Assembly (NCBI GenBank): GCA_009908745.1 | Contig: JAAAOU010000156.1 | Span: 1 to 32,836 of the forward strand | DNA length: 32,836 bases | Direction: 5' to 3' | From: Bacteroidota bacterium | Lineage (GTDB): Bacteria > Bacteroidota > Bacteroidia > Chitinophagales > Saprospiraceae | In this document: piece by piece, positions 14,780-29,811 of the stretch | Position numbering within the stretch: the first letter of the stretch is position 1 | Layout of the letters: the number at the start of each line of letters is the position of its first letter | Translations under genes and position numbers: made by a program | Notes under the pieces: generated by a model | Seen by the model: the letters and a program-made list of their open reading frames with translations, nothing else | The model's database searches: none | What the model was told of the DNA's origin: nothing

Positions 14780-14941
14780 GAGTGTGTTAGGACTTTAGTA
14801 ATCGGTCTACAAACTACACTTTTTCGCTTATACTTCGTCCCGAAAATCCTCATTTAGCTAAGGCTAAACTCCGGTTTTCGGGCCTCGTCTAACCAAAAAA
14901 TTGCTAGTTTTCGACTAGAAGACCAAAATCCCAACACACTC
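14780..14941. mobile_element. 162-bp MITE-like element, copy 1
   Basis: A non-coding element with terminal inverted repeats (GTGTTAGGA at the left, TCCCAACAC at the right, plus an outer GAGT/ACTC pair) and inner palindromes (TTTAGC/GCTAAA, CGAAAA/TTTTCG). Copy 2 at 28580-28741 has the same length and differs at 10 of 162 positions. It lies 2 bases after the stop codon of the 39-codon gene, and the flanks are TAAGA and TAGAA without a perfect target duplication. No transposase is encoded; it would have to be moved in trans. Confidence 0.85.
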
Positions 14942-14951
14942 TAGAAAAACC

Positions 14952-17410: not shown

Positions 17411-19387
17411 CTAGTAGAACAGGAACTGCCGCATCCTATCGCCGTCGAGCTCATTGCCTGCGGTGTAGTACCTGATGCTTTGTTCGATTAGGTCGGGGCG
17501 CATGCTCCTGAGCCCCCAGGGGGTGTAGATGGTACGCAGGGCTTCTTCGGAGCAGTTTTGTAGCAGCAGTTGCTCGTAGGTTTGTCGTGGTTCGTATTGA
17601 AGCTTCCATGCCAGAAAAATATCCGTCAGCAGCGGCAAGGGTACGCCCCCCGATTGCAGCAGTTGCAGGGCTAACTTGCGGTTTTTCTCCTCGCGGTGAA
17701 GCAGCATGAGTTGGAGCTTTTGCACCTTGCGCTCATCGTAATGATCGGCGAATTTTCGGCCTAGCGCCAGATTGAGGAAACGGGTCAAACTCAGCCGGGA
17801 AATGAAGCGCTGCTCTTTCTGCAATGGAGGCAGTGCCACCGTTTTTCTTAAGCGCCCGAGTACGATATAGTCTGCGGATTGGTTGGCATCCGTGATCACC
17901 GTTAGGCCTTGTTGTTGGAGTACCTCGATAGTCGCGGCAGCCTCGAACCCTGTTTGCCCCAGCAGCAGCAGGCTTGCCCCGTTAGCACTAGTGGGGATTT
18001 CCTGCACCGGGCTACGCTCTTGGAGTAAATGCCGGCGTATTTTATAGTTCCAGTCTCTCATGACGCCGAGGGCTAGTACCTGAAGTAGATGCGGTGTAGG
18101 GGTAAGCGGAATCGCTACATGAGGATCCTTTATTATTTCGTAGAGAATCTCCATGAAGGCTTCGGGGACATCGTAAGAGTTGCACTTACTGATAAACCTA
18201 ATCAGCTTCCTGTCGCTAAGTGCATTTCCTGCGCCGTGGATTTTTCGTAAGCTCCTTAGTTGAAAAAGCGAGGGGGGCATGGTTTCCATCTGGTTTTTGC
18301 GGATATCCAGCTTTCTCAGATGGCGCCATTGATGCAGGCGGCCCGGAAGCTGCGTCAGCTGGCAATCCCGTAAGGAGAGCTCTTCCAATTGAGTCAACTG
18401 GCACACGGATTCAGGCACTTGCCGTAGGGGGTTGCCGCTAAGCGACAGTTTCTTCAAGGAAGCAGGCAAGGCGGGTAGTTGCCGTAGCTCATTGCCCGAG
18501 AGGTCGAGCGTTCTCAAGTTAGCCAGCGTGGGCAGTTGATCCGGCAGACGGCTTATTCCGTTCCCCGACAATTTCAGGCGCTCCAGCCGCTGTGCGTCCT
18601 CAATTTGAGGGGGCAAGGCACTGATCTTATTGTTGTCAGCTTCAAAAACAGCCAGCCAAGGGAGGCTCCAAATAGGGCGCGGTATCTGAGTAAGCTTATT
18701 GCGGTTTAAGACCAACTGCCGCAGCCTGCGCAGGTCGCCCACCTCTTCAGGAAGGGACTTGAGGTTGTTGCGCTCTAGGAACAAAAAATGGAGTGCCCTC
18801 AAACCGTGGATATCAGCTGGCAAGTGGCTTAGGCGGTTATAGCTCAAGTCGAGCCGCTCTAGCCGCTTGAGGCGGCATAGGGTCTTTGGAAAGGTGCGTA
18901 TACGGTTGTGGGAAAGCACCAAACGGCGCAGGCTATGCAGATGGTGCAGGCCGAGGATACTGCGTATTTTATTGCTGTCGGCCTCCAAGCACTTTAATTT
19001 TCCTAGCGTTTGTATCTCTTTTGGAAGGGCTTCTAGCTGATTGTGGCTAAGCAGCAGGGTGTTTAAGCTGCTCAGGCCCGTAATGGCGGCGGGGATTTCG
19101 GTAAGGCGATTGCCAGACAGGTTGAGTTTCTCCAAATTCTGGAGCTCGAACAGTGCTTGTGGCAGCACCGCAATTTGATTATTGGCGAGGCTGAGCGTCC
19201 GCAGTTGCTTCAGGCTACTGATTTGGGGCGGAATGGTTTTCAAGGCGTTGTCGTTGAGGTGCAGATGACGCAATTGGGGGAGTGCAAAAACCAGCGGCGG
19301 CAGTTGATCCATACCACGATTGCGCAGATAGAGGGCTTTGACTTTATCCTGTTTGCGCCGGGCCTCTTCTAGATTATAACACTTCAT
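17411..19387 (-). CDS. Leucine-rich-repeat protein with C-terminal BRCT-like segment
   Basis: A 658-residue protein with no signal peptide or membrane helix, so probably cytosolic. Residues about 15-400 are some sixteen 23-residue leucine-rich repeats of the LxxLxLxxNxLxxLPxxl type, for example LRTLSLANNQIAVLPQALFE. After a helical stretch, residues about 465-515 (GASLLLLGQTGFEAA, IEVLQQQGLTVI and QSADYIVLGRL) read like a BRCT fold: strand, glycine turn, helix, strand, and a conserved DYIVLG end as in ligase BRCT domains. The rest is helical and I do not recognise it. Its ATG overlaps the stop of the MutS-like gene (ATGA), so translation is probably coupled. LRR and BRCT are both binding modules, which suggests an adaptor for the MutS-like ATPase. 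The BRCT call is by eye and moderate. Confidence 0.85.
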   Translation of the reverse strand: MKCYNLEEARRKQDKVKALYLRNRGMDQLPPLVFALPQLRHLHLNDNALKTIPPQISSLKQLRTLSLANNQIAVLPQALFELQNLEKLNLSGNRLTEIPAAITGLSSLNTLLLSHNQLEALPKEIQTLGKLKCLEADSNKIRSILGLHHLHSLRRLVLSHNRIRTFPKTLCRLKRLERLDLSYNRLSHLPADIHGLRALHFLFLERNNLKSLPEEVGDLRRLRQLVLNRNKLTQIPRPIWSLPWLAVFEADNNKISALPPQIEDAQRLERLKLSGNGISRLPDQLPTLANLRTLDLSGNELRQLPALPASLKKLSLSGNPLRQVPESVCQLTQLEELSLRDCQLTQLPGRLHQWRHLRKLDIRKNQMETMPPSLFQLRSLRKIHGAGNALSDRKLIRFISKCNSYDVPEAFMEILYEIIKDPHVAIPLTPTPHLLQVLALGVMRDWNYKIRRHLLQERSPVQEIPTSANGASLLLLGQTGFEAAATIEVLQQQGLTVITDANQSADYIVLGRLRKTVALPPLQKEQRFISRLSLTRFLNLALGRKFADHYDERKVQKLQLMLLHREEKNRKLALQLLQSGGVPLPLLTDIFLAWKLQYEPRQTYEQLLLQNCSEEALRTIYTPWGLRSMRPDLIEQSIRYYTAGNELDGDRMRQFLFY

Positions 19388-21195
19388 ACTTCCCCGATTT
19401 TGATACCCATTTGCTGCATGAGCAGGGTGGCGTTGAAGCTTTCGCTCACGCCCTTTCTAAGTTTATAGTCAAAGTACAGCTTCCCGTCCTTGATTTCCAC
19501 CTCAATGCAGAGGTTTTCTATACGCCCCTTGGCTTCGGCTTCCAGTTCCCCCAGCTCCAAGTCGTGCGTGGCGATAATCCCCGATCCCCGGCTGCGGATG
19601 AGTTGCCGGATGAGGGCCTTGGAGCCGGTGTGGCGGTCGTTGCTATTGGTACCTTTCAGTATTTCGTCCAAGAGGAAGAAGGCCTGCAACTGTGGTGGCT
19701 GATGATCAGCGGTAGCTTCCACCGCTTCGATGATGAATTTGAGGCGTTTCAGCTCTGCGTAGAAGGAAGAAGTGCTTTCCTGCAGGGCATCTTGCGTACG
19801 CATGCTGGTATAGACCTGCAGGGGCGGCAGTTCTAGCTGTTTGGCGCAAGCCGGCGCACCCGCCATAGCGAGCACGATATTGATGCCTACGGTGCGCAGG
19901 AAGGTGCTTTTGCCCGCCATGTTTGAGCCAGTGACCAGCTTGATATGGCCATCGGTGGGCAATTGGATGTCATTGCACACCCGTTTGCCGCGGGGCAGCA
20001 GGGGATGGCCGACCTCCACCGCTTCTACCTGCATGCGGCGGGTGATCGTGGGCATGGCCCAGTCGGGATTGTTATGGTAACAATTGGCGTAGCTGCTCAG
20101 GGCTTCGAACGCGGCCATGGCTTCAAACCAAGCGGGCAATCGGTCTTGCATGCCGGTTTTCCACTTCTCCAGGCGGTAGACGTATTGCAATTCCCACAGC
20201 CCGAGTATATTGAAGATAAAAGCGAAGGCATTGTAGCGGACATTCAGCTGCCGGATGATGTACGATAGCCGTTGGATCATGACGGAAGCCTCTTTGCCCG
20301 TTTCGTCAAAGCGGCCGTGCAGTTCCCGCAGGAGCGGCGACTCAAATGCTTGGCCCTCGATTTGCTGTATGAGCTTGGCGTAGTGCGACAAGGCTTTCTC
20401 GGCATGGGCGGTTTTCAGGTGCGTGGTATTGACCTGTTCGGCAAACTGCCGCAGGATCAGCAAAGCGGGGAGGTAAAGCAACAGGCCTAGGTACCAAGGC
20501 AAGTAAAGCGCCCAGATCACAGCTGCCAGCACCGACCAGAGCGGTAGGGCGTACAGGGCGACAACCACCCATTTTTTGTCGGTGAGAAAGGGCGGCTCGG
20601 TGAGCCAGCGCTTCAGCAGCTCGATCTGTGCGGGGTCATCCTCCGCCTCTAGGCCGTACGCCTGAAAGTGCTGCCGCCAGTCTAGCATATCCGCCAGTTC
20701 TTTGGTAGCGTCTTGCCTAGCCTGAATTTCTTTTGGGGCGGCGGGCTTGGACAGCCAGTCAGCCAGCTGTTGTTGCCCCAAGGCGGTAGTGGCCCGGTTG
20801 AGGTACTGAAAGAGGGAAAAAGGGCCGAAGAGGTCGAGGTCGATAGCGTTGGGATGGTCTGCTTTCAGGAAAGCGGCCCCGTCGGCGTAGTTGGAGAAAT
20901 CGTGCTTATCGTAGGCGGCGGCTTCCCACTCATTGAGCTGCGCTAGACGGCTTTGGTGCTGTTCCTCCTCTTTGATACCTTGGTGCCAGCGCACGAAACG
21001 GTAGAACCCAAACAGGAAGACGACGACGCCCGCAATACCCGCCAAAAAGTGCACCGACGACCACAGCAATACGATAGCAGCTATGCTGAGCAGGAAGATC
21101 AGCAAGCGGATGAGGGAGAAGCGGTTGTAGCGTTGGCGGAGTGCTTCTGCCGCTTCTTTAAATGCTTGGGCCCGTTGTGTGTAGGATTGCCCCAT
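19384..21195 (-). CDS. Membrane-anchored MutS-like ATPase
   Basis: A 603-residue protein with the MutS ATPase at its C-terminus: Walker A TGSNMAGKST (about residues 420-429), a SSFYAELKRLKFIIE helix, Walker B FFLLDEILKGTNSNDR (about 502) and THDLELGELE. This is the MutS domain V signature (DE..GT). The usual N-terminal mismatch-binding domain I (with its Phe-X-Glu) is absent. Instead residues about 27-65 form two transmembrane helices (LIRLLIFLLSIAAIVLLW and FLAGIAGVVVFLFGF) and about 205-250 form another hydrophobic pair. It is therefore a membrane MutS-related protein of the kind seen in Bacteroidota, not a canonical mismatch repair protein. ATG at 21195 is preferred over the TTG two codons upstream. 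It is coupled to the LRR gene. Confidence 0.88.
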   Translation of the reverse strand: MGQSYTQRAQAFKEAAEALRQRYNRFSLIRLLIFLLSIAAIVLLWSSVHFLAGIAGVVVFLFGFYRFVRWHQGIKEEEQHQSRLAQLNEWEAAAYDKHDFSNYADGAAFLKADHPNAIDLDLFGPFSLFQYLNRATTALGQQQLADWLSKPAAPKEIQARQDATKELADMLDWRQHFQAYGLEAEDDPAQIELLKRWLTEPPFLTDKKWVVVALYALPLWSVLAAVIWALYLPWYLGLLLYLPALLILRQFAEQVNTTHLKTAHAEKALSHYAKLIQQIEGQAFESPLLRELHGRFDETGKEASVMIQRLSYIIRQLNVRYNAFAFIFNILGLWELQYVYRLEKWKTGMQDRLPAWFEAMAAFEALSSYANCYHNNPDWAMPTITRRMQVEAVEVGHPLLPRGKRVCNDIQLPTDGHIKLVTGSNMAGKSTFLRTVGINIVLAMAGAPACAKQLELPPLQVYTSMRTQDALQESTSSFYAELKRLKFIIEAVEATADHQPPQLQAFFLLDEILKGTNSNDRHTGSKALIRQLIRSRGSGIIATHDLELGELEAEAKGRIENLCIEVEIKDGKLYFDYKLRKGVSESFNATLLMQQMGIKIGEV

Positions 21196-21308
21196 AAACA
21201 ATATTGTTGAAGCGCAAAAGTAGGGAAAGTGCAGGTACTGAGCACCGATTATGAGTTAAAAACAGCTATTCCTGCCCCTACCGTCCTAAAGCTTAGCCCG
21301 CTACGGTC

Positions 21309-21471
21309 TATAGTCTGACAACTCAGGATTTGTGAAAATATGACGCCGCTATTTTTTCGGCTGGCAAGGCGGAAAACGTAGGCATAGCCTAAGTTCTGTC
21401 GAGGCTTTCCAACGCAGCAAGGCGGAAAAAGAGCAAGTCAGAATTCACAAATTTCGGGTTGTCAGACTATA
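21309..21471. mobile_element. 163-bp palindromic MITE-like relic overlapping the photolyase 3' end
   Basis: TATAGTCTGACAAC (21309-21322) and GTTGTCAGACTATA (21458-21471) are perfect 14-bp inverted repeats. A second pair, TTTGTGAA (21329-21336) and TTCACAAA (21444-21451), lies inside them. The core has the direct repeat GCAAGGCGGAAAA twice and a palindromic TAGGCATAGCCTA. It encodes no protein. The right arm contains the last codons and TGA stop of the CRY-DASH gene. Only one copy is present in the window, so mobility is inferred from structure alone. Confidence 0.7.
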
Positions 21472-22875
21472 AATGCGTTTCACTGCCCACTCTAACTTAC
21501 TGGACAATGCTTCGGGTGCCGGGTAATCTGTACCGATCTGCAGTCCATACTGCGCTTGTTCTTCTTTGCCCATAGCAAAGGGTGCATAGATTTTTGGCGC
21601 AGGCACCTCGGACAGTTCCGGCAGCCAGTGCCGTACAAATTCCCCTTTTTTGTCGTATTTCTTACTCTGCCAAATCGGGTTGGTGAAGCGTTGTTCCGTG
21701 GCCTGCGTATTCCAGTTGAGCCAATTGCTGCAAACATCATAGTCGATAAGTTGAGACTCAAACCAAGCGGCGCCCCAAGTCCAGTTGATGCCGTACTCCT
21801 TCGCCAAAAAGCTAGCGTGGTTCACCCGCCCGCGGTTGGACATGAAGCCCGTCTGATTCATCTGCCGCATGTGCGCATCTAGGAAAGGGATGCCCGTCTC
21901 TGCCCTGCGCCACTTGTCGAAAAGCGGTTGATCTTCCTTCCATTCCAGCTCTTTGCCTTTAATCCCACTTGGGAAAAACATGCGGTTGCCGTGCTTCATG
22001 CCCAGATACTGGAAAAACTCCCGCCATTTGAGCTCAAAGATTAGCCAGTAGGTGGAGATATTCTTTTTGACTTCCGCCTCGTACTTCTTGTTTTCCCAAT
22101 AGACCCGGCGGGGCGACAGGCAGCCCAGCGCGAGGTAAGGGGAGAATTTGGAGCTGTAGTCGTCGCCCAAGGACTGATTGCGGGTCCACTTGTAGCGGGT
22201 AAGCAGCTCACTGTCGAAGAAGTAGTACTGCAACCGTTCGAGGGCTGCTGTTTCCCCTCCTTTATAGGCGGGGGTACCGGCTTCCTCAAAACCCAAATCG
22301 GCCAGCGTTGGCGTGTTGCCGTATTCAGCTCCTTCCAGCAATGGAAGGCGGACTGGTTCGGGCAAAAGCGGACGGACTTTGCCGCCCTTGCGCAGTTGCT
22401 TGCGGAAGGTCTTGAAAGTAGCCGCGGTTTCCTCAGGCTCGAAAGAGAGATCATCCGGGTGGTACAGCAGATGGCTCCAATCCCGTTGAAATTGGCATTC
22501 CAAGGGGGCAATGGAACGTTGCACCGCCTTTTCCTCTTGCCGTTCCTCCCAGGGGATGTCCGCCTGTGCGTAGACGGCCTGAATGTCATGCTGGCGAACC
22601 AGCTTAGGCAGGGCCTCAGCCGCTGGGCCGACCACGACTTGCAAATCACCGCCAATGGCGCGCAAGTTTTTACGCAGGTTGTCGAGGCTTTGCAGCAAAA
22701 AAGCCGCCCGGTTGACGCCCGTTTTGCGAAAGCCCAGTGGAAGCTCCCGAAACCAGTCGGGGTCAATGCAGTAGACCGGCAGGATGGCTTGGCTTTCCTT
22801 GATGGCGTTTTGTAACACCGGGTTGTCATGCAGGCGCAAGTCTTTTCGGAACCAGAGGATGCTGCGGGTGGGCAT
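21445..22875 (-). CDS. CRY-DASH family photolyase/cryptochrome
   Basis: A 476-residue flavoprotein. It starts RSILWFRKDLRLHDNP (N-terminal photolyase alpha/beta domain for the antenna cofactor), with an FAD domain from about residue 220. DASH-type hallmarks are WRNQSLGDDYSSKFSPYLALGCLSPR-like (here KWTRNQSLGDDYSSKF), YWLIFELKWREFFQYLGMKHGNRMFF, GFMSNRGRVNHASFLAKE and WFESQLIDYDVCSNWLNWN. CRY-DASH proteins repair cyclobutane dimers in single-stranded or looped DNA with light and may also signal. The last eight residues (YSLTTRNL) and the stop codon are encoded by the palindromic element at 21309-21471, so the C-terminus has been replaced or extended. This should not harm the FAD core. A small unknown gene lies 50 bases upstream in the same direction. 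Confidence 0.94.
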   Translation of the reverse strand: MPTRSILWFRKDLRLHDNPVLQNAIKESQAILPVYCIDPDWFRELPLGFRKTGVNRAAFLLQSLDNLRKNLRAIGGDLQVVVGPAAEALPKLVRQHDIQAVYAQADIPWEERQEEKAVQRSIAPLECQFQRDWSHLLYHPDDLSFEPEETAATFKTFRKQLRKGGKVRPLLPEPVRLPLLEGAEYGNTPTLADLGFEEAGTPAYKGGETAALERLQYYFFDSELLTRYKWTRNQSLGDDYSSKFSPYLALGCLSPRRVYWENKKYEAEVKKNISTYWLIFELKWREFFQYLGMKHGNRMFFPSGIKGKELEWKEDQPLFDKWRRAETGIPFLDAHMRQMNQTGFMSNRGRVNHASFLAKEYGINWTWGAAWFESQLIDYDVCSNWLNWNTQATEQRFTNPIWQSKKYDKKGEFVRHWLPELSEVPAPKIYAPFAMGKEEQAQYGLQIGTDYPAPEALSSKLEWAVKRIYSLTTRNL

Positions 22876-22925
22876 GGTTTTTTAAGCACCTAACGGAGGG
22901 CAGGAGGTAGTGTTCATAAAGTCGG

Positions 22926-23357
22926 TTAGTTAGGCACATTGTCCCGGATGAAGCTTAAATACCCTCTAGCCCCATTTTCCTTGCGCCAAAAGCGGGCAGA
23001 GCGGCGTAAGTAGTTGAAGCCTGTAGCGTAGAGTGTTTCCAAGTAAGGGATCGTCTTTCCGCCGAGGGTGTAATCCGTGTTTTGGAGGACGTGCTCGTCT
23101 GCCCCTAACTCTTCCCGTACATCCAAGGCTGTTATAATCGCTTCGATCAGGGCTTGCTTGCGGGTAATCGTGGAAGTGGGTTCGTCCATACTTTTACCTT
23201 GCGCTAGCTTTTTGAAGAACTTTTGGAGCGAGTCGTAGACCATTTCAACGTCTTTATCTTCGAGTCTCGGGTGCTCTTTGGATACCTTAATGACAGCTTC
23301 TTCTACACTGAACAGGCAAGGCTGCAGGAAGTCGGGCGGCATGTGGGAATTAGACAT
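22926..23357 (-). CDS. Hypothetical protein (143 aa)
   Basis: A 143-residue soluble protein that I do not recognise. It has no signal peptide or membrane segment. The N-terminal half is helical and charged (FSVEEAVIKVSKEHPRLEDK, VYDSLQKFFKKLAQGK), the middle carries TITRKQALIEAIITALDVREE, and the end is aromatic and basic (FNYLRRSARFWRKENGARGY). It ends 50 bases before the CRY-DASH start and likely shares its transcript. It is divergent from the helicase fusion, separated by 124 bases that are AT-rich. The ATG at 23357 is chosen; a second Met five codons in is also possible. Confidence 0.65.
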   Translation of the reverse strand: MSNSHMPPDFLQPCLFSVEEAVIKVSKEHPRLEDKDVEMVYDSLQKFFKKLAQGKSMDEPTSTITRKQALIEAIITALDVREELGADEHVLQNTDYTLGGKTIPYLETLYATGFNYLRRSARFWRKENGARGYLSFIRDNVPN

Positions 23358-23481
23358 GGACCAGTTTTTTCGTTTTTTAAAAGAAAGTAATTTTTTTAAA
23401 TAGGGCTGCTAAGCCTTCTGTTTAGAAGAATAAGGCAGTAGCTTTAGGAGCTGTGAAATTAAAGAAAACGCACCAAAACAC

Positions 23482-26148
23482 ATGCAATTACTGAGATATA
23501 ATGAGTTCTCTGCCAAAGGCCTGAGCAGCAAAGTGAAAAAAGTGGAGCGGATGCTGCAGGCAGGGGACTTCAAATCCGCGGAGGTTAAGAAAATCAAGCA
23601 GCTGGGCTACTTCCGCGCCAAGCTCGACCACGAGAACCGGTTGCTATTCAAATTTGCGAAGCATCAGGGGGAAACTTACATCTTGCTGCTGGAAGTCATT
23701 CCCAATCATGACTACGACAAATCGAGGTTTCTGAGGGGGGCGTCGGTGAAAGACAACCACTTTAGCGAAGTGCAGGGGCCCGAGAAGGTAGAGGAAGAGA
23801 CAATGGAGGCCATACGGTACGTCAACCCGGCTACCAAACGCTTCCACTTGCTCGACAAGGTCCTGTCATTGGACAGCGATCAGGAGGAAATTTACAACCT
23901 GCCCGCACCGTTGATTATCATTGGCTCGGCGGGCAGCGGCAAGACGGCGCTGACGCTGGAAAAGATGAAGGGCTACCCCGGCCACGTAGCCTATGTTTCG
24001 CTTTCTCCCTACCTGGTGGAAAATGCGCAGCGCATCTATGAGTCGTACGGGTACGAAAACCCAAAACAGGAGATTGACTTCCTCTCTTTCCGGGAGTACC
24101 TGGAGGGGATACAGATACCGGAAGGCAAGGAGCTAGACTACCGCAGCTTTGAGCGCTGGTACGAACGCGGGCCCCGGCAACGTTTCAAATTCAAGGAGCC
24201 TTACAAGCTCTTCGAGGAATTCAAGGGGGTGCTGACTGGTTCGGTGACGGATGCGGCGTACCTCAGCCGGGAGCGTTACGAAGAGCTTGGCGTCAAGCAG
24301 TCGATCTTCTTGGGCAGCGAACGGGGCAAGGTTTACGATCTCTTCGAGCGCTATCTGCGCTTCCTGAAAGAGCAGGGCTACTACGACAGCAACATGGTAG
24401 CGTACCAATATATGGATCGGGTGACGCCAAAGTACGACTTCGTGATCGTTGATGAGGTGCAGGACGTTACTAACATTCAGCTGCTGCTGATTTTGAAATC
24501 GCTGAAGACACCCGGCAACTTTTTGCTCAGTGGGGATGCCAATCAGATCGTGCACCCCAACTTCTTTTCTTGGTCGAAGATCAAAAGCCTATTTTTCAAT
24601 CAAGATTTAAAGGGCAGCGCGCTGCGCATTCTCAAGACCAACTACCGCAACTCCCGGCAGGTGACCAAGCTGTCTAACGACCTGCTAAAAATCAAGAATG
24701 CCCGCTTTGGGTCCATCGACAAGGAGAGCACCTACCTGATCAACACCGTAGCGGACAAGGAAGGGAAAATCCACTTTTACCCGGACAGCGACAAAGTGCG
24801 CAAGGAGCTCAACAAACGGACGAAGGACTCCGCCAAATTTGCGGTGCTGGTGCTGGACAAGCAGCAAAAAGCACAAGTGTCGAAAGATTTCAAGACCCCG
24901 CTGGTGTTTACCATTCAGGAGGCCAAGGGGTTGGAGTACGAAAACATCATCCTGGTCAACTTCATCAGTGATCACGATAGCGAATTCCGCACTATTGCCA
25001 AAGGCGTAAGCGAAGCCGACCTGCTGGATGAGAACCTGCGGTACGCCCGCGCTAAGGATAAAACCAACAAGGATCAGGAGGCTTACAAATTTTACATCAA
25101 CTCCCTGTACGTGGCCTTCACCCGCGCCGTGCAGAACGTCCACATCGTAGAGGCCAAAACTAAGAATGAGCTGCTGCAACTCCTCGGCGTGATGGAGACG
25201 GAAGAGGAGGTAAAGATTGAAAAACAGGCTAGCGACGAGGAGGAGTGGCTGGAAGAAGCCCGCCGCTTGGAGCTGCAGGGAAAATTTGAGCAGGCCGAAG
25301 CCATCCGGGCCCGCTTGCGCGGCATTGAGTTTGTGGGGGCAGAGGAGGCCGAGTTGCTGGCAGAGCGGATATTCGACCCGGAAGCCAGCCATACGGAGCA
25401 GGACGTGGAGCGCCTCTTTTTGTTTGCCCGCACGCGGCACCGCATTGCACTGGTGCAGCGGCTGCATGAGGAATTGAACTACGGCCCGGCCAAGCAATAC
25501 TTGGGCGAGTACCAGAAAGCACAGCAACAACTGGCTAACCATGTGCGCAACAAAAACCGGAAAAAGGTGGAGCGCATCGTCAGCAAGTTTGGCGTAGATA
25601 TACCGGATGCCGCAGAAGGCATGACCGGCCTGATGATTGCCGCGCAGCACGGCAAGATCGACATGCTTTACTACTTCCTGGAGCAGGATGCCAACCGCAA
25701 CCGGCAGGACCATCTGGGGCGCACCGCTTTGCAGCACCTGATTTTGGGCTACGACCGCCGGCAGCTCAATAAGTTCTTGCTGGAAACCTGGTACCCCAAG
25801 CTGGCCCCTTCCGCCGGGCAGTGCCGCTACGATGGCCGTCTGTACATCATCAACCACAAGAGCATGGAGTTTTTCCTCTACAATGTGCTCAACGCGATCC
25901 GCCTCGATGTATTCGCCCCCAATGACCCGCTGCCGGAGCGTTGCTTGCTGATGGACGACTTCATGCAGTTTATCGAAGAAATGCCGCCATCGCTACTCCC
26001 CGATTACCGCCGCAAGCGGCAGTATGTCAACAGCATCCTCTCCAAACACGAAGTCAACCGGGATGACCCGTACAACCGCAAACTGTTTGTGCGCCGCAGC
26101 CGGGGTTGCTACGATGTGCTGCCGGGGGCGGAGGTGAGCTGGGGGTAG
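23482..26148 (+). CDS. RelE-like / UvrD-type helicase / ankyrin fusion protein
   Basis: An 888-residue multidomain protein. Residues about 10-85 (SSKVKKVERMLQAGDF, QLGYFRAKLDHENRLLFKF, ILLLEVIPNHDYDKSRFL) resemble the compact RelE/ParE fold, with a YFRAKL..ENRLLF core. A superfamily 1 UvrD/Rep helicase follows: a Q-motif-like DSDQEEIYN, Walker A GSAGSGKT (148-155), motif II VIVDEVQD (D324, E325), motif III SGDANQIVHPNFFSW, TNYRNSRQV, the IQEAKGLEYENIILV segment and VAFTRAVQNVHIVE (motif VI, near 543). An acidic coiled linker follows, then one or two ankyrin repeats (about 713-755, GMTGLMIAAQHGKIDMLYYFLEQDA and DHLGRTALQHLI). No nuclease motif is obvious. RNA/DNA handling in defence or repair is plausible but unproven. 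The start at 23482 gives the whole RelE-like part. Confidence 0.87.
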   Translation: MQLLRYNEFSAKGLSSKVKKVERMLQAGDFKSAEVKKIKQLGYFRAKLDHENRLLFKFAKHQGETYILLLEVIPNHDYDKSRFLRGASVKDNHFSEVQGPEKVEEETMEAIRYVNPATKRFHLLDKVLSLDSDQEEIYNLPAPLIIIGSAGSGKTALTLEKMKGYPGHVAYVSLSPYLVENAQRIYESYGYENPKQEIDFLSFREYLEGIQIPEGKELDYRSFERWYERGPRQRFKFKEPYKLFEEFKGVLTGSVTDAAYLSRERYEELGVKQSIFLGSERGKVYDLFERYLRFLKEQGYYDSNMVAYQYMDRVTPKYDFVIVDEVQDVTNIQLLLILKSLKTPGNFLLSGDANQIVHPNFFSWSKIKSLFFNQDLKGSALRILKTNYRNSRQVTKLSNDLLKIKNARFGSIDKESTYLINTVADKEGKIHFYPDSDKVRKELNKRTKDSAKFAVLVLDKQQKAQVSKDFKTPLVFTIQEAKGLEYENIILVNFISDHDSEFRTIAKGVSEADLLDENLRYARAKDKTNKDQEAYKFYINSLYVAFTRAVQNVHIVEAKTKNELLQLLGVMETEEEVKIEKQASDEEEWLEEARRLELQGKFEQAEAIRARLRGIEFVGAEEAELLAERIFDPEASHTEQDVERLFLFARTRHRIALVQRLHEELNYGPAKQYLGEYQKAQQQLANHVRNKNRKKVERIVSKFGVDIPDAAEGMTGLMIAAQHGKIDMLYYFLEQDANRNRQDHLGRTALQHLILGYDRRQLNKFLLETWYPKLAPSAGQCRYDGRLYIINHKSMEFFLYNVLNAIRLDVFAPNDPLPERCLLMDDFMQFIEEMPPSLLPDYRRKRQYVNSILSKHEVNRDDPYNRKLFVRRSRGCYDVLPGAEVSWG

Positions 26149-26150
26149 GG

Positions 26151-26204
26151 GAGCGACGTAGGCGTAGCCTACGACGAACAGGGCGTAGCCTATGACGAAC
26201 AGGG
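26151..26204. repeat. GC-rich palindromic repeat cluster (CGTAGGC family), left
   Basis: Two units of a palindrome (core CGTAGGCGTAGCCTACG, each followed by ACGAACAGGGC or a close variant) start three bases after the helicase stop codon. The 43 bases at 26143-26185, including that stop, recur identically at 28188-28230. The same family returns at 26344-26375, 28128-28249 and 29676-29747. The cores can fold into hairpins on either strand. No coding role is seen. Confidence 0.8.
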
Positions 26205-26210
26205 CCGGAC

Positions 26211-26375
26211 TGCCTTTGCTTGCAACGGCTTGCGCCTGGCCACCGCCACCCACCCATCGGCTGGGCTGTAGCCAGTCGATGGGTGGGCGGCTTGCTGTCC
26301 GTAGGTGGCTTTGGAGCACCTTCTACCCGTAGCTTACCACCTTGAGCGACGCAGGCGCAGCTTACGCCGAACAGG
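26211..26375. repeat. 165-bp direct repeat R1, left of the AAA-ATPase gene
   Basis: The segment recurs as R2 at 27993-28157 with 5 differences in 165 bases and the same orientation. It contains a long hairpin: CCCACCCATCGGCTGG (26249-26264) pairs with 26272-26287 over 16 positions with a single G-T pair and a 7-base loop. R1 ends 22 bases before the ATPase start codon, so its hairpin and T-rich end may form the gene's leader. Confidence 0.9.
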
Positions 26376-26397
26376 AAAGTTTTTTATTTTTACATCC

Positions 26398-27945
26398 ATG
26401 GAGAAACTACCCATCGGCATACAAGACTTCGGAGAGCTGCGCAGGGGCGGCTATGTGTATGTAGACAAGACCGAGCTGATCCACCGCATGGTCACGATGG
26501 GCAAGCCCTACTTCCTTTCCCGGCCCCGCAGGTTCGGAAAATCTTTGCTCGTTTCTACCCTGAAGGCCTTGTTTGAAGGCAAGCGGGAGCTGTTCGAAGG
26601 CTTGTGGATCGAAAACCGCTGGGACTGGCAGCAGACCAACCCGGTGCTGCATTTTTCTTTTGAGGCTATCGATTATGATAAGAAAGGGCTCGAAGCGGCT
26701 TTGCAGTTGCACCTCAGGATGAAAGCCGAAGCATTCAACCTGAGGTTGGAACGATTGGGCAGCAAAGAACAGCTTGCAGAATTGATACAGAAAATCGCAG
26801 CCAAACATGGTCAGGTCGTACTGCTTATAGACGAGTATGACAAGCCTATCACCGACTACCTCACCGAAGAGGGTATAAGCCAGGCTAAGGCGAACCGGGA
26901 CTTGTTGCGCGAGTTTTACGGTGTCCTTAAAAGCGCCGACGAGCACCTGCGCCTGATTTTCATCACCGGCATCTCCAAATTTGCGAAAGTTTCCATCTTT
27001 TCACATCTAAACAACCTCTCTGACCTTACCTTGCACCGCGCCTATGCCACGCTAACGGGCTATACACAATCGGAGCTGGAATATTACTTCGAGCCTCACC
27101 TGCAAGCTGCCGCACAGGTTTTGGAGCTCCCCCCGGCACAACTACTCGAAAATATCCAGGAATGGTATAACGGCTATTCCTGGGATGGCCGCAATAAGGT
27201 CTACAACCCTTTTGGTATACTCAGTTTTCTGGATCAGCAGGCTTTCGTAAATTTCTGGTCGGCCAGCGGTACGCCCCGGCTGATTGTTGAGCAGATGCGG
27301 CAGCAGCAGCTTTATGCTATGGAGGAAGTGCCTATCAAAAGCTTTATTTTCGAACATTTTGACCTGGACCATATCGCGCTTGTCCCACTGCTATTCCAGT
27401 CTGGCTACCTGACGGTAAAATCAGCCAACCTGCTGAAGGGGGAATATGTGCTGCATTACCCTAACAAAGAGGTACGCGAAAGCATGTACGCTTTTCTGCT
27501 GCAAGAGCTCTCTCCCGAGCCGACTCGCCACAATACCGGCCGCACGGTCCACGACCTACAGCAGGCTTTTGCTCAGGACAACCTGGAGCAGGTGCGGGAT
27601 ATCTTGGACAGCGTGCTTGCAGATTTGCCTTACGAAACCTTTGATAAAACGTCTGAGGGCCTGTTTCACGGCTTGGTACACATCTTATTCAACTACCTGG
27701 GGCTCTACTGCGATAGTGAGGTGCACTCCGCCCGCGGGCGGGCAGATGCGGTGGTTCAGATGCCGCAGTCCGTCTATGTCTTCGAATTCAAAATTCACCA
27801 AACGGCTACCGAGGCGCTTCAGCAAATCCGTGAGCGCGACTACGCGCAGCGTTTCCGCAGCAGCGGCAAGCGGGTATTGGGAATCGGGGTCCACTTTGAT
27901 GGGCAGGAACGGCGGATTGCGGGCTGGGAGGTGGAAGCGCTTTAG
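26398..27945 (+). CDS. AAA-ATPase-like / PD-(D/E)XK nuclease-family protein
   Basis: A 515-residue protein of the AAA-ATPase_like plus PDDEXK_9 architecture. N-terminal YVDKTELI and SRPRRFGKSLL (a Walker A variant ending GKS, about residues 40-50) are followed by VVLLIDEYDKPI (Walker B, about 140) and FITGISKFAKVSIFSHLNNL (sensor region). The C-terminal nuclease-like fold has GRADAVV...VYVFEFKI, matching a D-x(n)-E-x-K active site, near residues 445-465. These genes occur in many copies in Bacteroidota genomes; their role is unknown and they are often thought mobile or defensive. The frame is open for 31 more codons, but ATG at 26398 is preferred since the family begins MEKLPIGIQDF. Direct repeats R1 and R2 frame it. 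The last 18 bases of the gene are repeated at 29746-29763. Confidence 0.9.
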   Translation: MEKLPIGIQDFGELRRGGYVYVDKTELIHRMVTMGKPYFLSRPRRFGKSLLVSTLKALFEGKRELFEGLWIENRWDWQQTNPVLHFSFEAIDYDKKGLEAALQLHLRMKAEAFNLRLERLGSKEQLAELIQKIAAKHGQVVLLIDEYDKPITDYLTEEGISQAKANRDLLREFYGVLKSADEHLRLIFITGISKFAKVSIFSHLNNLSDLTLHRAYATLTGYTQSELEYYFEPHLQAAAQVLELPPAQLLENIQEWYNGYSWDGRNKVYNPFGILSFLDQQAFVNFWSASGTPRLIVEQMRQQQLYAMEEVPIKSFIFEHFDLDHIALVPLLFQSGYLTVKSANLLKGEYVLHYPNKEVRESMYAFLLQELSPEPTRHNTGRTVHDLQQAFAQDNLEQVRDILDSVLADLPYETFDKTSEGLFHGLVHILFNYLGLYCDSEVHSARGRADAVVQMPQSVYVFEFKIHQTATEALQQIRERDYAQRFRSSGKRVLGIGVHFDGQERRIAGWEVEAL

Positions 27946-27993
27946 CCTCTCACCGTACCAGCGTCACATCCCCTTGCCGCGTCCACACCCCGT
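27927..27993. repeat. 67-bp junction repeat A (ATPase 3' end plus CHU_C-type 3' remnant)
   Basis: These bases recur as repeat B at 29746-29811 with a 1-base indel and few substitutions. Both copies hold the ATPase C-terminal codons (V-E-A-L-stop) followed on the other strand by a type IX sorting-domain end. The two repeats bracket about 1.75 kb of foreign-looking DNA. Copy A ends exactly where R2 starts. Confidence 0.85.
27950..27993 (-). pseudogene. C-terminal remnant of a type IX sorting-domain (CHU_C) gene
   Basis: Read on the minus strand, this short stretch encodes GVWTRQGDVTLVR followed by a TGA at 27952-27950. That is the same C-terminal peptide as the intact gene at 29768-32836, which ends in TAG. 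The upstream part of the gene has been cut off by the repeat R2. It is a small fragment and cannot be functional. Confidence 0.75.
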
Positions 27994-28157
27994 GCCTTTG
28001 CTTGCAACGGCTTGCGCATGGCCACCGCCACCCACCCATCGGCTGGGCTGTAGCCAGTCGATGGGTGAGCGGCTTGCTGTCCGTAGGTGGCTTTGGAGCA
28101 CCTGCTACCCGTAGCTTACCACCTTGAGCGATGTAGGCGCAGCTTACGCCGAACAGG
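27993..28157. repeat. 165-bp direct repeat R2, right of the AAA-ATPase gene
   Basis: A near-identical copy of R1 (26211-26375). The differences include a G-to-A change at the outer end of the long hairpin stem, so the stem is slightly shorter here. It begins at the end of the CHU_C remnant and runs into the palindrome cluster. Confidence 0.9.
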
Positions 28158-28249
28158 GCGACGTAGGCGCAGCCTACGCCGAGCAGAGGGTAGGGGAGCG
28201 ACGTAGGCGTAGCCTACGACGAACAGGGCGCAGCCTACGACGAACAGGG
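28128..28249. repeat. GC-rich palindromic repeat cluster, middle
   Basis: Four or so units with cores such as CGTAGGCGCAGCCTACG and CGTAGGCGTAGCCTACG, spaced by CGAACAGGGCG-like or CGAGCAGAGGG-like linkers. The last two units (28188-28247) repeat the segment just after the helicase gene almost exactly. Together with R2 they fill the 27946-28307 stretch, which has no gene apart from the CHU_C remnant. Confidence 0.8.
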
Positions 28250-28307
28250 GCTCTTGTTGACTATATGCTTGAAACTCCTTACATTGATAGTCAATAAAGT
28301 GAGTATT

Positions 28308-28814
28308 ATGAGAGGGAAGCCCCACAGGGATGTTCACCATAGAAGTGATACTTTCGAATCCAGACGGTCTGCGTTCAGATGGATTAAAAGAATCTTGGGG
28401 ATCCCAGTGATCACCCACCCTACAGAAACCATTAGGAATAAAAATAGCGAGGCGTGGAAAAGAGAAGGATTGAGGCGTAACAAAAATAAGGGGCTGTACA
28501 TTTTCAAATGGCTTGGCAAGTTATTTAGTGTCAGAGAAGATGACGGCAATTTTTACGTCGATCAAGGTCCCCATTTTAAGACCGTGTTGGGACTTTAGTA
28601 ATCGGTCTGCAAACTGCACTTTTTTGCTTATACTTCGTCCCGAAAATCCTCATTTAGCTTAGGCTAAACTCCGGTTTTCGCGCCTCGTCTAACCAAAAAA
28701 TTGCTAGTTTTCGACTAGAAGACCAAAATCCCAACACGGTCTAACTATGGTAAACACGGCAAGAAGCTCAAGGGGCACGCTTATTATCCTAAAAAGAAGA
28801 AGCAGAAGCAATGA
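28308..28814 (+). pseudogene. Small basic protein gene interrupted by MITE copy 2
   Basis: The intact front part encodes 90 residues starting MRGKPHRDVHHRSDTF and ending GNFYVDQGPHF. The frame then enters the MITE and stops at a TAG at 28596-28598, after a foreign tail. Removing 28577-28741 (the left TAA partner and the element) joins it in frame to NYGKHGKKLKGHAYYPKKKK and a TGA at 28812-28814, giving 113 residues. That restored stop overlaps the next ATG as ATGA. The restored protein is very basic, Lys- and His-rich, with aromatic ends like several toxin tips, but I recognise no family. It is AT-richer than its neighbours and was probably acquired with the gene that follows. Possible toxin or effector with a downstream antidote, by arrangement only. 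Confidence 0.65.
28580..28741. mobile_element. 162-bp MITE-like element, copy 2, with TAA target duplication
   Basis: Terminal inverted repeats run GACCGTGTTGGGA to TCCCAACACGGTC, with the same interior as copy 1 at 14780-14941. The outer flanks are TAA at 28577-28579 and TAA at 28742-28744, a 3-bp target duplication of TNA type. This suits mobilisation by an IS5-like transposase (inference). Its outer two base pairs differ from copy 1 but remain complementary in both copies. No ORF spans it. Confidence 0.88.
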
Positions 28815-29518
28815 TCAATTATAAGATTTACAACAGCCTATTGGAGATTGAAGACCTGAATCTTGAATCCAGCTTGTTCTCCTTGACTTTGCAAAACCAA
28901 AAGGTTCTTGAGTCTTTGAAGGTCCTACAGGTGAAAGAAAACGCCCACTTTCAGCGAGATATGCTTTCCTTATTCAGGGACTTTCTGGTTTTTAGCACCA
29001 AAGCGCACAAGGTGTATTTGGTATTCCTTGAGCCGTACCCCCAGAAAAAGAATAGAATCAGGAGCAAAAAAGGGCTTTTTTACCCCCATAGTATTGTATT
29101 CAGGCAATCTGCCACCTACGAAACTGAAATAGAAGTCTCACCGGGCGAAACATTACTAGCCGGTATTACCCAAGTCACCGTGTCTGATATTGACCGTGTG
29201 GCCGACTGCCTTGATGAATTGCCCTTTGCTTTTGGCTTAGCCGTCCCCCAACAAAAAAGGGCGTTTGCCAATAGTAGAAAAGATACGCTGGAAACAATCG
29301 TACGTCAAGGACTAAAACCGGGAAAGATATATTGGAAAAACTGGCTCAAGATTGTTGCCCTACTTCTAAAGCCAGAACGTAAAATCTTCACGCTGCAAAC
29401 GCTTAATGACAGCGAATATTTCCGGGTTTTTCACCATAGAGCTGACGGACAGTGGGAAAAGCAACTAGAACACTTTTTTGCGCAGCAGCTCCAGAACCGC
29501 CCTGCTTTACAAAGCTAA
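28811..29518 (+). CDS. Hypothetical protein (235 aa), partner of the interrupted gene
   Basis: A 235-residue soluble protein with no signal peptide, membrane segment or cysteine. It begins MINYKIYNSLLEIEDL and carries alternating beta-like stretches (KVYLVFLEPYPQKKNRIRSK, YETEIEVSPGETLLAGITQV), then FAFGLAVPQQKRAF and a basic-aromatic region KPGKIYWKNWLKIVALLLK. I do not recognise a family. Its ATG overlaps the restored stop of the upstream MITE-broken gene (ATGA), so the pair was once translationally coupled. The AT-rich composition differs from the surrounding genes and fits horizontal origin. An immunity or antitoxin role would fit the arrangement, but the sequence itself does not show it. 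Confidence 0.75.
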   Translation: MINYKIYNSLLEIEDLNLESSLFSLTLQNQKVLESLKVLQVKENAHFQRDMLSLFRDFLVFSTKAHKVYLVFLEPYPQKKNRIRSKKGLFYPHSIVFRQSATYETEIEVSPGETLLAGITQVTVSDIDRVADCLDELPFAFGLAVPQQKRAFANSRKDTLETIVRQGLKPGKIYWKNWLKIVALLLKPERKIFTLQTLNDSEYFRVFHHRADGQWEKQLEHFFAQQLQNRPALQS

Positions 29519-29747: not shown

Positions 29748-29811
29748 AGGTGGAAGCGCTTTAGCCCCTACCGCACCAGCGTCACATCCCCTTGGCGCGT
29801 CCACACCCCGT
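29746..29811. repeat. 66-bp junction repeat B
   Basis: The right-hand copy of the repeat at 27927-27993. Its left part is a fragment of the AAA-ATPase 3' end (GTGGAAGCGCTTTAG), with no ATPase gene attached. Its right part is the real 3' end of the type IX-secreted protein gene. Presence of both gene ends in both copies shows that these two genes were once directly convergent. Confidence 0.85.

Follow-up and report, generated by a model that had tools for sequence, protein, structure and literature searches.

A marine Bacteroidota bacterium from the Saprospiraceae (assembly GCA_009908745.1, in 541 contigs) carries a gene that joins a toxin-like domain to a helicase motor in one chain. We studied it within a 32,836-nucleotide stretch of DNA (contig JAAAOU010000156.1, positions 1 to 32,836, forward strand), hereafter the window. 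The gene, at 23482-26148 on the plus strand, encodes a protein of 888 amino acids (aa) in which residues 1-90 almost certainly adopt the RelE/YoeB-type (BECR) fold, as judged from structure prediction, and are followed by a superfamily 1 (SF1) helicase, ankyrin repeats and a conserved C-terminal domain. A previous sequence-only reading of this DNA had described an 888-residue protein of this composition and suggested that it would suit a sensor-effector in anti-phage defence. Its account of the open reading frame (ORF), the RelE/ParE-fold domain, the SF1 motifs and the C-terminal ankyrin repeats has held up. Our leading explanation, which is tentative and slightly more doubtful than an even case, is that the protein is a self-contained mobile sensor-effector, a helicase-gated RNase most likely drawn from the anti-phage or anti-element pool. 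For a role against phages or other elements, taken by itself, the case seems evenly balanced. The ORF begins with an ATG confirmed in the window, and the homologues share this start in the alignment. The parts of the gene are as follows.

23482..26148, plus strand: whole gene, RelE-like domain, SF1 helicase, ankyrin repeats and C-terminal domain, 888 aa (ORF, Pfam, alignment, AlphaFold2)
23482..23751, plus strand: predicted RelE/YoeB-fold domain, residues 1-90 (AlphaFold2, Foldseek, VIA-align, Pfam on homologues, alignment)
23752..23838, plus strand: variable linker, residues 91-119, median identity 0.22 (alignment)
23839..25191, plus strand: SF1 helicase core, residues 120-570 (Pfam, alignment)
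25192..25551, plus strand: connector, residues 571-690, helical in a low-confidence model, with conserved W589, G600 and Q604
25552..25791, plus strand: ankyrin repeats, residues about 691-770 (Pfam)
25792..26145, plus strand: conserved C-terminal domain, residues 771-888 (alignment)

A Pfam scan of residues 1-120 of the window protein matched no family. Scanned singly, six of 29 homologue N-termini matched PF24732 ParE_like (best E-value 2.8e-5) and one of the 29 gave YoeB_toxin at 0.063; a PF24732 search of the bacterium's own genome returned no match anywhere, and its controls were equally silent. When a profile of 29 N-termini was compared with the PDB, YoeB chains were among the top matches, at an E-value of 0.23 only and intermixed with unrelated chains, and hhalign of the domain against 11 YoeB toxins from related genomes gave a probability of 23%. 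The sequence evidence for a RelE-type domain is therefore suggestive, these last two values making it insufficient to settle the identity. Structure prediction of the N-terminus, the check proposed with the sequence-only reading, was more informative. AlphaFold2 on residues 1-112, with an alignment of eight sequences, gave a model with a predicted local distance difference test (pLDDT) of 90.4 and a predicted template modelling score (pTM) of 0.85. Its best PDB match in Foldseek, and the sole match with an E-value below 0.001, is a YoeB/ParE toxin (E-value 6.6e-4, TMq 0.53). VIA-align, which re-examines Foldseek's own candidates and whose Z below 8 may mean merely a common arrangement, gave a best Z of 8.6, with 2.2 Å over 74 residues. 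Among the best 50 VIA-align matches listed, 48 are RelE/ParE/YoeB/HigB/YafQ-type toxins, and the remainder are Cami1 (CARF-RelE, 8phj) and Txp40.

The main alignment has 39 rows, the window protein and 38 homologues, most of which were drawn with a RelE-containing query that biases the set towards full-length forms. A duplicate of the window gene (locus L004), a contig-end fragment (L039) and a fragment with a stop (L046) were left out, and two loci found later (L052 and L053) stand outside the counts. Thirteen residues are identical in every row (K37, R45, A46, R53, L54, L70, E71, I73, H76, Y78, S81, F83 and L84), and position 47 is always basic (Lys in 33 rows, Arg in six). In the register of the PDB profile match and of hhalign, R53 aligns with the Arg of the YoeB H-R-[LV]-V-Y strand, which we take to be YoeB R65. 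R45 and K47 presumably occupy the places of RelE K52 and K54, and H76 that of YoeB H83. Because R45, R53, H76, Y78 and a basic residue 47 are kept throughout, the cluster has the look of a functional RelE/YoeB-type site, not of an inactive one. On this conservation pattern we consider it somewhat probable that the domain is an active RNase.

Pfam families above cut-off in the window protein are UvrD-helicase, AAA_19, Viral_helicase1 and Ank_2 (3.5e-7), and ankyrins are present in all 29 members scanned. The SF1 (UvrD-like) motifs I, II, III, IV, V and VI are all in place: Walker A at 148-155, DEVQD at 324-328, GDANQ at 351-355, N387/R389, EAKGLEY at 480-486 and VAFTR at 544-548. The motif residues (Walker A, DEVQD, G351/D352, N387/R389, E480-Y486 and V544-R548) vary little or not at all. 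Further along, the C-terminal domain keeps R871 and Y877 in all rows and R843, R846 and E857 in 38. Identity to the window protein ranges from 37 to 93% for the 28 homologues of set A1, the closest named relative found being the Phaeodactylibacter xiamenensis copy (93% across the whole protein). Over the 39 rows, median identity to the window protein is 0.46 in residues 1-90 and 0.50 in the helicase, versus 0.23 in the ankyrin region and 0.28 at the C-terminus. By this measure the protein putatively pairs a conserved effector-motor core with an arm that changes fast. The full-length AlphaFold2 model (pLDDT 66, pTM 0.38) was too poor for a structure search.

The gene appears to stand alone. We compared ORFs of at least 70 aa within 8 kb of the gene at 32 loci, listing clusters of at least three loci. 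The recurrent neighbours were the synteny of one distant genus (g49) plus one scattered cluster of three loci (L066, L069 and L081), with ORFs of 249-413 aa at unlike distances; beyond these, no recurrent partner or antitoxin ORF of this size was found in the 32 loci. Since no antitoxin gene is seen beside the gene, the RelE domain is probably kept silent in cis until triggering. In the mechanism that we favour, the ankyrin arm and C-terminal domain would bind a trigger or a host or phage protein, and the SF1 motor would engage nucleic acid with ATP and shift the pose of the N-terminal domain. Once released, the RelE-fold domain would cut RNA, probably mRNA on the ribosome as YoeB, RelE and Cami1 do.

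The distribution of the gene is patchy. It is present in two of six genomes of its own genus and in eight of 150 genomes of the family, the own genome counted in both and one of the eight being a fragment. In the distant genus g49 it occurs in 25 of 65 genomes, two copies being split. Thus it is not the universal single-copy core gene that the sequence-only reading had named as a possible counter-finding. In a sample of the phylum, 124 of 296 genomes have a helicase match of some kind and 23 of 296 (rows at E-values of at most 1e-170) have RelE and helicase together; the matches are either full over residues 1-611 or weak and helicase-only, with no intermediates. Matching plasmid records number 135 of 72,556, with 123 covering at least 80% of the query: 101 Shigella, 13 Escherichia, 10 Piscirickettsia, two each from Deinococcus, Methylosinus (one strain) and Cetobacterium, and single others. 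Four of the genera or strains among them (Euhalothece, Deinococcus NW-56, Crinalium and Paraclostridium) contribute helicase-only cousins. The N-terminal domain alone as query found 131 plasmid records (Shigella 103, Escherichia 13, Piscirickettsia 10, Methylosinus 2, and Thermus, Deinococcus and Polymorphobacter). Among the rows viewed, the Shigella plasmid homologues are annotated as hypothetical, ankyrin or UvrD-helicase proteins or not annotated, and an E. coli record named pINV carries a homologue as well. Matches occur in 111 of 5,426 E. coli genomes, 95 of them over at least 80% of the gene, at 102 chromosomal and 10 plasmid places.

In a helicase tree the ankyrin family forms a single clade (100/100), and Methylosinus groups with a Bacteroidota family (f17; 94/94, not starred). 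Patchy presence, plasmid carriage and this cross-phylum grouping make the gene look old, mobile, accessory and phylum-crossing. A single-sequence query of viral contigs found no match; a profile query found eight loci, comprising one full-length relative, one partial relative and six helicase-only matches. The full-length relative (L052, 8001-10859, on an IMG/VR contig; 37% identity) lies near ORFs that by eye resemble those of a Mu-type transposase set, plus one of YfjI type, and the partial one (L053, 2-1501), which lies at a contig end and covers the C-terminal part, is followed by ORFs that by eye are of phage-tail or contractile-injection type.

Such mobility would also suit a gene that serves the upkeep, replication or competition of plasmids or satellite elements rather than protection of the cell. 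Besides the 135 plasmid records, part of which are only cousins, the E. coli setting speaks for this: at four loci viewed with extended flanks, Gp2-like genes and a small helix-turn-helix gene precede the gene, the helix-turn-helix gene is named AlpA at one of them, where YfjI is named too, and three of the four adjoin CbtA/CbeA- or YeeU-, RadC/JAB- and antirestriction-type genes. A CbtA/CbeA and RadC module is described for defensive satellite-like elements in the relevant section of a 2025 preprint (PMC12458937). Conversely, no integrase or relaxase was found among ten Bacteroidota neighbours scanned, on short contigs with partly annotated flanks, and competition among elements overlaps with defence. 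We regard a purely element-serving role as improbable.

The same ten neighbours, taken from seven Saprospiraceae-type homologues, include in Pfam an H+-pyrophosphatase, Tex, a GlgC-type protein, CHAT, an M64 peptidase, thioredoxin, two further ATPases and a second PDDEXK_9 ATPase. In g49 the recurrent neighbours are metH-like, mnmA-like, L,D-transpeptidase and HD-domain genes. The HD gene lies within about 1.7 kb in 16 of the 25 gene-bearing g49 genomes and occurs in 50 of 65 overall, but it was rejected as a partner, since its frequency is similar with the gene (20 of 25 genomes) and without it (30 of 40).

Housekeeping neighbours in several genomes, together with the metH- and mnmA-like genes that adjoin in g49, could point to cellular RNA surveillance or ribosome rescue, in which the protein would clear stalled mRNAs, loosely like Upf1-type decay. 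The Viral_helicase1 match above cut-off, and an SLFN-g3_helicase match below it (22.1 bits against a cut-off of 24, with no Schlafen nuclease domain listed), lean the same way. A gene that is patchy even within a genus, carried on plasmids, grouped across phyla and frameshifted in some copies does not behave as such a function would suggest, and we hold this explanation to be quite unlikely. As an analogy, group 3 Schlafens presumably also combine a translation-targeting nuclease with an SF1-type helicase in one chain; their nuclease fold is, we assume, unrelated to the RelE-type domain here.

More distant relatives link the proposed helicase-gated RNase with defence loci. These cousin helicases match the window helicase at only about 25-28% and carry RelE/ParE-type N-termini. 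ParE_toxin is above cut-off in four of them: one on a plasmid of Deinococcus sp. NW-56 (7.9e-6), two on Pseudanabaena plasmids, found in a search with the Deinococcus protein (6.5e-7 and 7.2e-8), and one in Thermomicrobium (1.1e-6). The Deinococcus fusion (L105, 15511-17532) is encoded in a BREX operon that runs BrxB, BrxC (1220 bits), fusion gene, PglX (1206 bits) and, at a greater distance, PglZ and BrxL, which places it between brxC and pglX; HNH- and DarT-type genes follow in the same locus. One Pseudanabaena cousin adjoins a DpdE-like helicase (670 bits) and a DrmMI-like methylase. Matches below cut-off were obtained for the Euhalothece and Crinalium cousins (YoeB/HigB, 0.0015 and 0.0033), the latter with a weak tetratricopeptide repeat (TPR) match, and for four forms of 690-700 aa (HigB-like, 0.00013 to 0.024). 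The Paraclostridium cousin has TPRs above cut-off and a RelE-like N-terminus by eye only; neither it nor the forms of 1280-1500 aa (L002, L028 and L030) gave a RelE/ParE Pfam match despite their by-eye likeness. One of these long forms, a 1437-aa frame in the own genome (L002, 286-4128, contig C379), combines a related helicase (28%) with a RelE-like N-terminus, the latter judged by eye and unsupported by Pfam.

Ankyrins were not listed in any of the cousins scanned whole (L002, L103, L104 and L106-L110). It therefore seems that the toxin-helicase pair stays constant while the repeat arm is swapped; for TPRs, this pattern draws on weak matches. A 100/99 branch splits the repeat-free ParE_toxin cousins from the ankyrin group. 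Because several long branches meet in the helicase tree and its root is arbitrary, it does not decide between one origin of the RelE-helicase fusion and several. As RelE/ParE-like N-termini recur on several related helicases, the domain is, by sequence comparison, a putative recurrent partner domain of this helicase lineage. An ordinary helicase accessory domain, the second counter-finding named with the sequence-only reading, is thus half borne out: the fold is RelE-type, but such N-termini do recur on related helicases.

The fusion itself is known in kind, since ArmD of the ARMADA II system has a RelE-like N-terminus on a UvrD-family helicase (2025 preprint, PMC12458937); the solitary ankyrin form is what we find undescribed. 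According to the sections of that source on ARMADA II, protection is abolished by loss of any of the four genes or by mutation of the ArmD Walker A lysine. ArmD resembles the protein studied here in its two domains and in sitting in mobile defence islands; the RadC/ArdB and CbtA/CbeA modules of these islands are like those close to three of the four E. coli loci viewed. It differs in belonging to a four-gene operon with YprA-, BrxHII- and PglX-like partners, whereas the gene here is solitary and its family has the look of a one-gene relative. Judged by ArmD's description in those sections, where it is called GajB-like, the ankyrins and C-terminal domain of the window protein set the two apart. 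The comparison raises the alternative of an ArmD-like DNA-acting helicase, non-abortive and directed at invading DNA, whose RelE-fold domain is an RNA- or protein-binding accessory (e.g. for nascent RNA or R-loops). This would agree with the need for the Walker A lysine in a system reported to protect without cell death (PMC12458937, same sections) and with the recurrence of RelE/ParE-type domains on related helicases (four ParE_toxin above cut-off, four HigB-like below). It agrees less well with the invariance of R45, R53, H76 and Y78, which exceeds the needs of a passive clamp, or with the neighbours scanned for the ankyrin clade, among which there are no ARMADA or BREX partner genes. We judge it unlikely.

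Other known proteins share parts of the proposed design of a helicase-gated RNase. RelE/YoeB/HigB/ParE toxins have the same fold, with R53 at the Arg of the YoeB strand; here the domain has no antitoxin gene in sight and is built into an 888-aa helicase protein. Cami1, a CARF-RelE protein of type III CRISPR, likewise has a RelE domain governed by another domain in one chain, as described in the sections on it (PMC11229360). Cami1 has a CARF sensor, a cA4 signal and no helicase, whereas the Pfam scan of the whole window protein listed no CARF domain. GajB of Gabija is a UvrD-like helicase in defence, which the window protein matches weakly in PADLOC (about 40 bits); the window protein has no GajA partner found and carries the extra RelE and ankyrin domains.

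The best-ranked matches in open-licence PMC literature contained no description of a RelE-helicase-ankyrin protein or of its testing against phages. The accessible parts of Gerdes 2025 (PMC11980606) mention neither helicase, UvrD nor ankyrin and state that many multidomain RelE/ParE proteins were omitted. The corresponding parts of PMC3710099, PMC5512222, PMC9122126 and PMC2701414 hold nothing about this architecture. Those of PMC5571608 list UvrD/REP helicase-like and ankyrin repeat-containing clusters among pathogen-specific E. coli proteins; one of these clusters may be the present family.

The idea of a defensive sensor-effector, as put forward in the sequence-only reading, is strengthened by the cousin in a BREX operon, the cousin beside DpdE and a methylase, the mobile-element setting in E. 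coli and ArmD; the weak PADLOC matches at the neighbours do not support it. Three of the ten homologue neighbours match PADLOC models (PDC-S27 and PDC-S01, which are candidate systems, and a caspase domain) and seven none, while the seven window neighbours (17411-29518) gave weak matches only (best E-value 0.0017). Several observations weigh against a helicase-gated RNase in defence. The RelE catalytic residues that were sought are present in part: the basic, His and Tyr cluster is there, but the place of the YoeB general base E46 presumably falls on K36. The best PADLOC score of the gene is 43 bits, for the helicase part only, and no match was found in 50,697 phage records. Housekeeping-type neighbours (H+-pyrophosphatase, Tex and GlgC type) adjoin several homologues, and the annotation marks a frameshift in two of the four E. 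coli copies, whose surroundings are nearly identical. Four related loci of g49 have a small ORF (87-97 aa) with a AIGALAIGTLAIGKL-type hydrophobic repeat 15-57 bp downstream of the gene; it may be a local companion there. Finally, ARMADA II reportedly acts in a non-abortive way, so killing is not a necessary property of a RelE domain in a fusion of this kind, and the section describing ARMADA II mutants includes none of the ArmD RelE part (PMC12458937). The small ORFs beside the g49 genes and the divergent ORF beside the window gene are located as follows.

L070, 8187-8447: small downstream ORF, g49
L071, 12119-12400: small downstream ORF, g49
L072, 11952-12242: small downstream ORF, g49
L074, 12428-12694: small downstream ORF, g49
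22926..23357, minus strand: divergent 143-aa ORF beside the window gene, no Pfam family, 73% aa identity to the congener's copy

The divergent ORF also lies by the gene copy of the congener and was not among the ORFs of the other loci compared; it is a possible companion of the gene. On the other side of the gene, 26389-27945 encodes an AAA-ATPase_like/PDDEXK_9 protein by Pfam, the PD-(D/E)XK ATPase that the sequence-only reading had noted nearby. A partnership with it did not survive comparison. The stretch 26305-29518, which holds the ATPase block, is missing beside the congener's copy, where a gene of type IX secretion system type, a relative of the window gene at 29768 onwards, begins 19 bp after the gene. 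The ATPase was accordingly ruled out as a conserved partner. In one other genome (L066) a PDDEXK_9 ATPase of similar type sits on the opposite strand, 21 bp away from the gene. Since copies of the window's ATPase also occur elsewhere in three of five sister genomes, such adjacency is probably coincidence. Among the seven window neighbours scanned, both flanks included, there are no YprA-, BrxHII- or PglX-like genes, and GajA gave one match only (0.021), to a MutS-like protein.

The window also contains dispersed repeats, in agreement with the repeat-rich accessory zone described in the sequence-only reading. An interspersed repeat of about 165 bp at 28580-28745 and 14784-14943, with inverted ends CCGTGTTGGGA...TCCCAACACGG, resembles a miniature inverted-repeat transposable element. 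It has 24 matches in the own genome (self, both strands and fragments counted) and many in sister genomes. A second dispersed repeat of about 166 bp, at about 21308-21474, has many copies in genomes of the genus. Upstream of the gene lie a long leucine-rich-repeat protein of 658 aa (17411-19387) and a MutS domain V protein (19384-21201), with domain III just below cut-off and no match to domains I, II or IV. Four of five sister genomes have DNA that matches the latter gene, on different contigs from the focal gene where that is present.

In its widest form, the helicase-gated RNase would be an immune protein encoded by one gene, its RelE-type ribonuclease being gated in cis by an SF1 motor and an ankyrin sensor. 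It would be one branch of a broad, phylum-spanning class of RelE-helicases that includes the gene on 101 Shigella plasmid records. Members of this class would occur with ankyrins, perhaps with TPRs or with no repeats, either solitary or in BREX, Dpd-like and ARMADA operons. This full picture is doubtful, and we put it forward with reserve. The invariant R53 and H76 and the Walker A lysine make the questions of RNase and motor directly testable. If the picture is true, the toxin-antitoxin world would widen to include a toxin that lacks a separate antitoxin and is instead controlled by a motor within its own chain. It would also tie a common and apparently unstudied gene of plasmids and islands, those of E. 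coli and Shigella included, to the RelE-helicase parts that ARMADA uses and that occur here in a single BREX operon.

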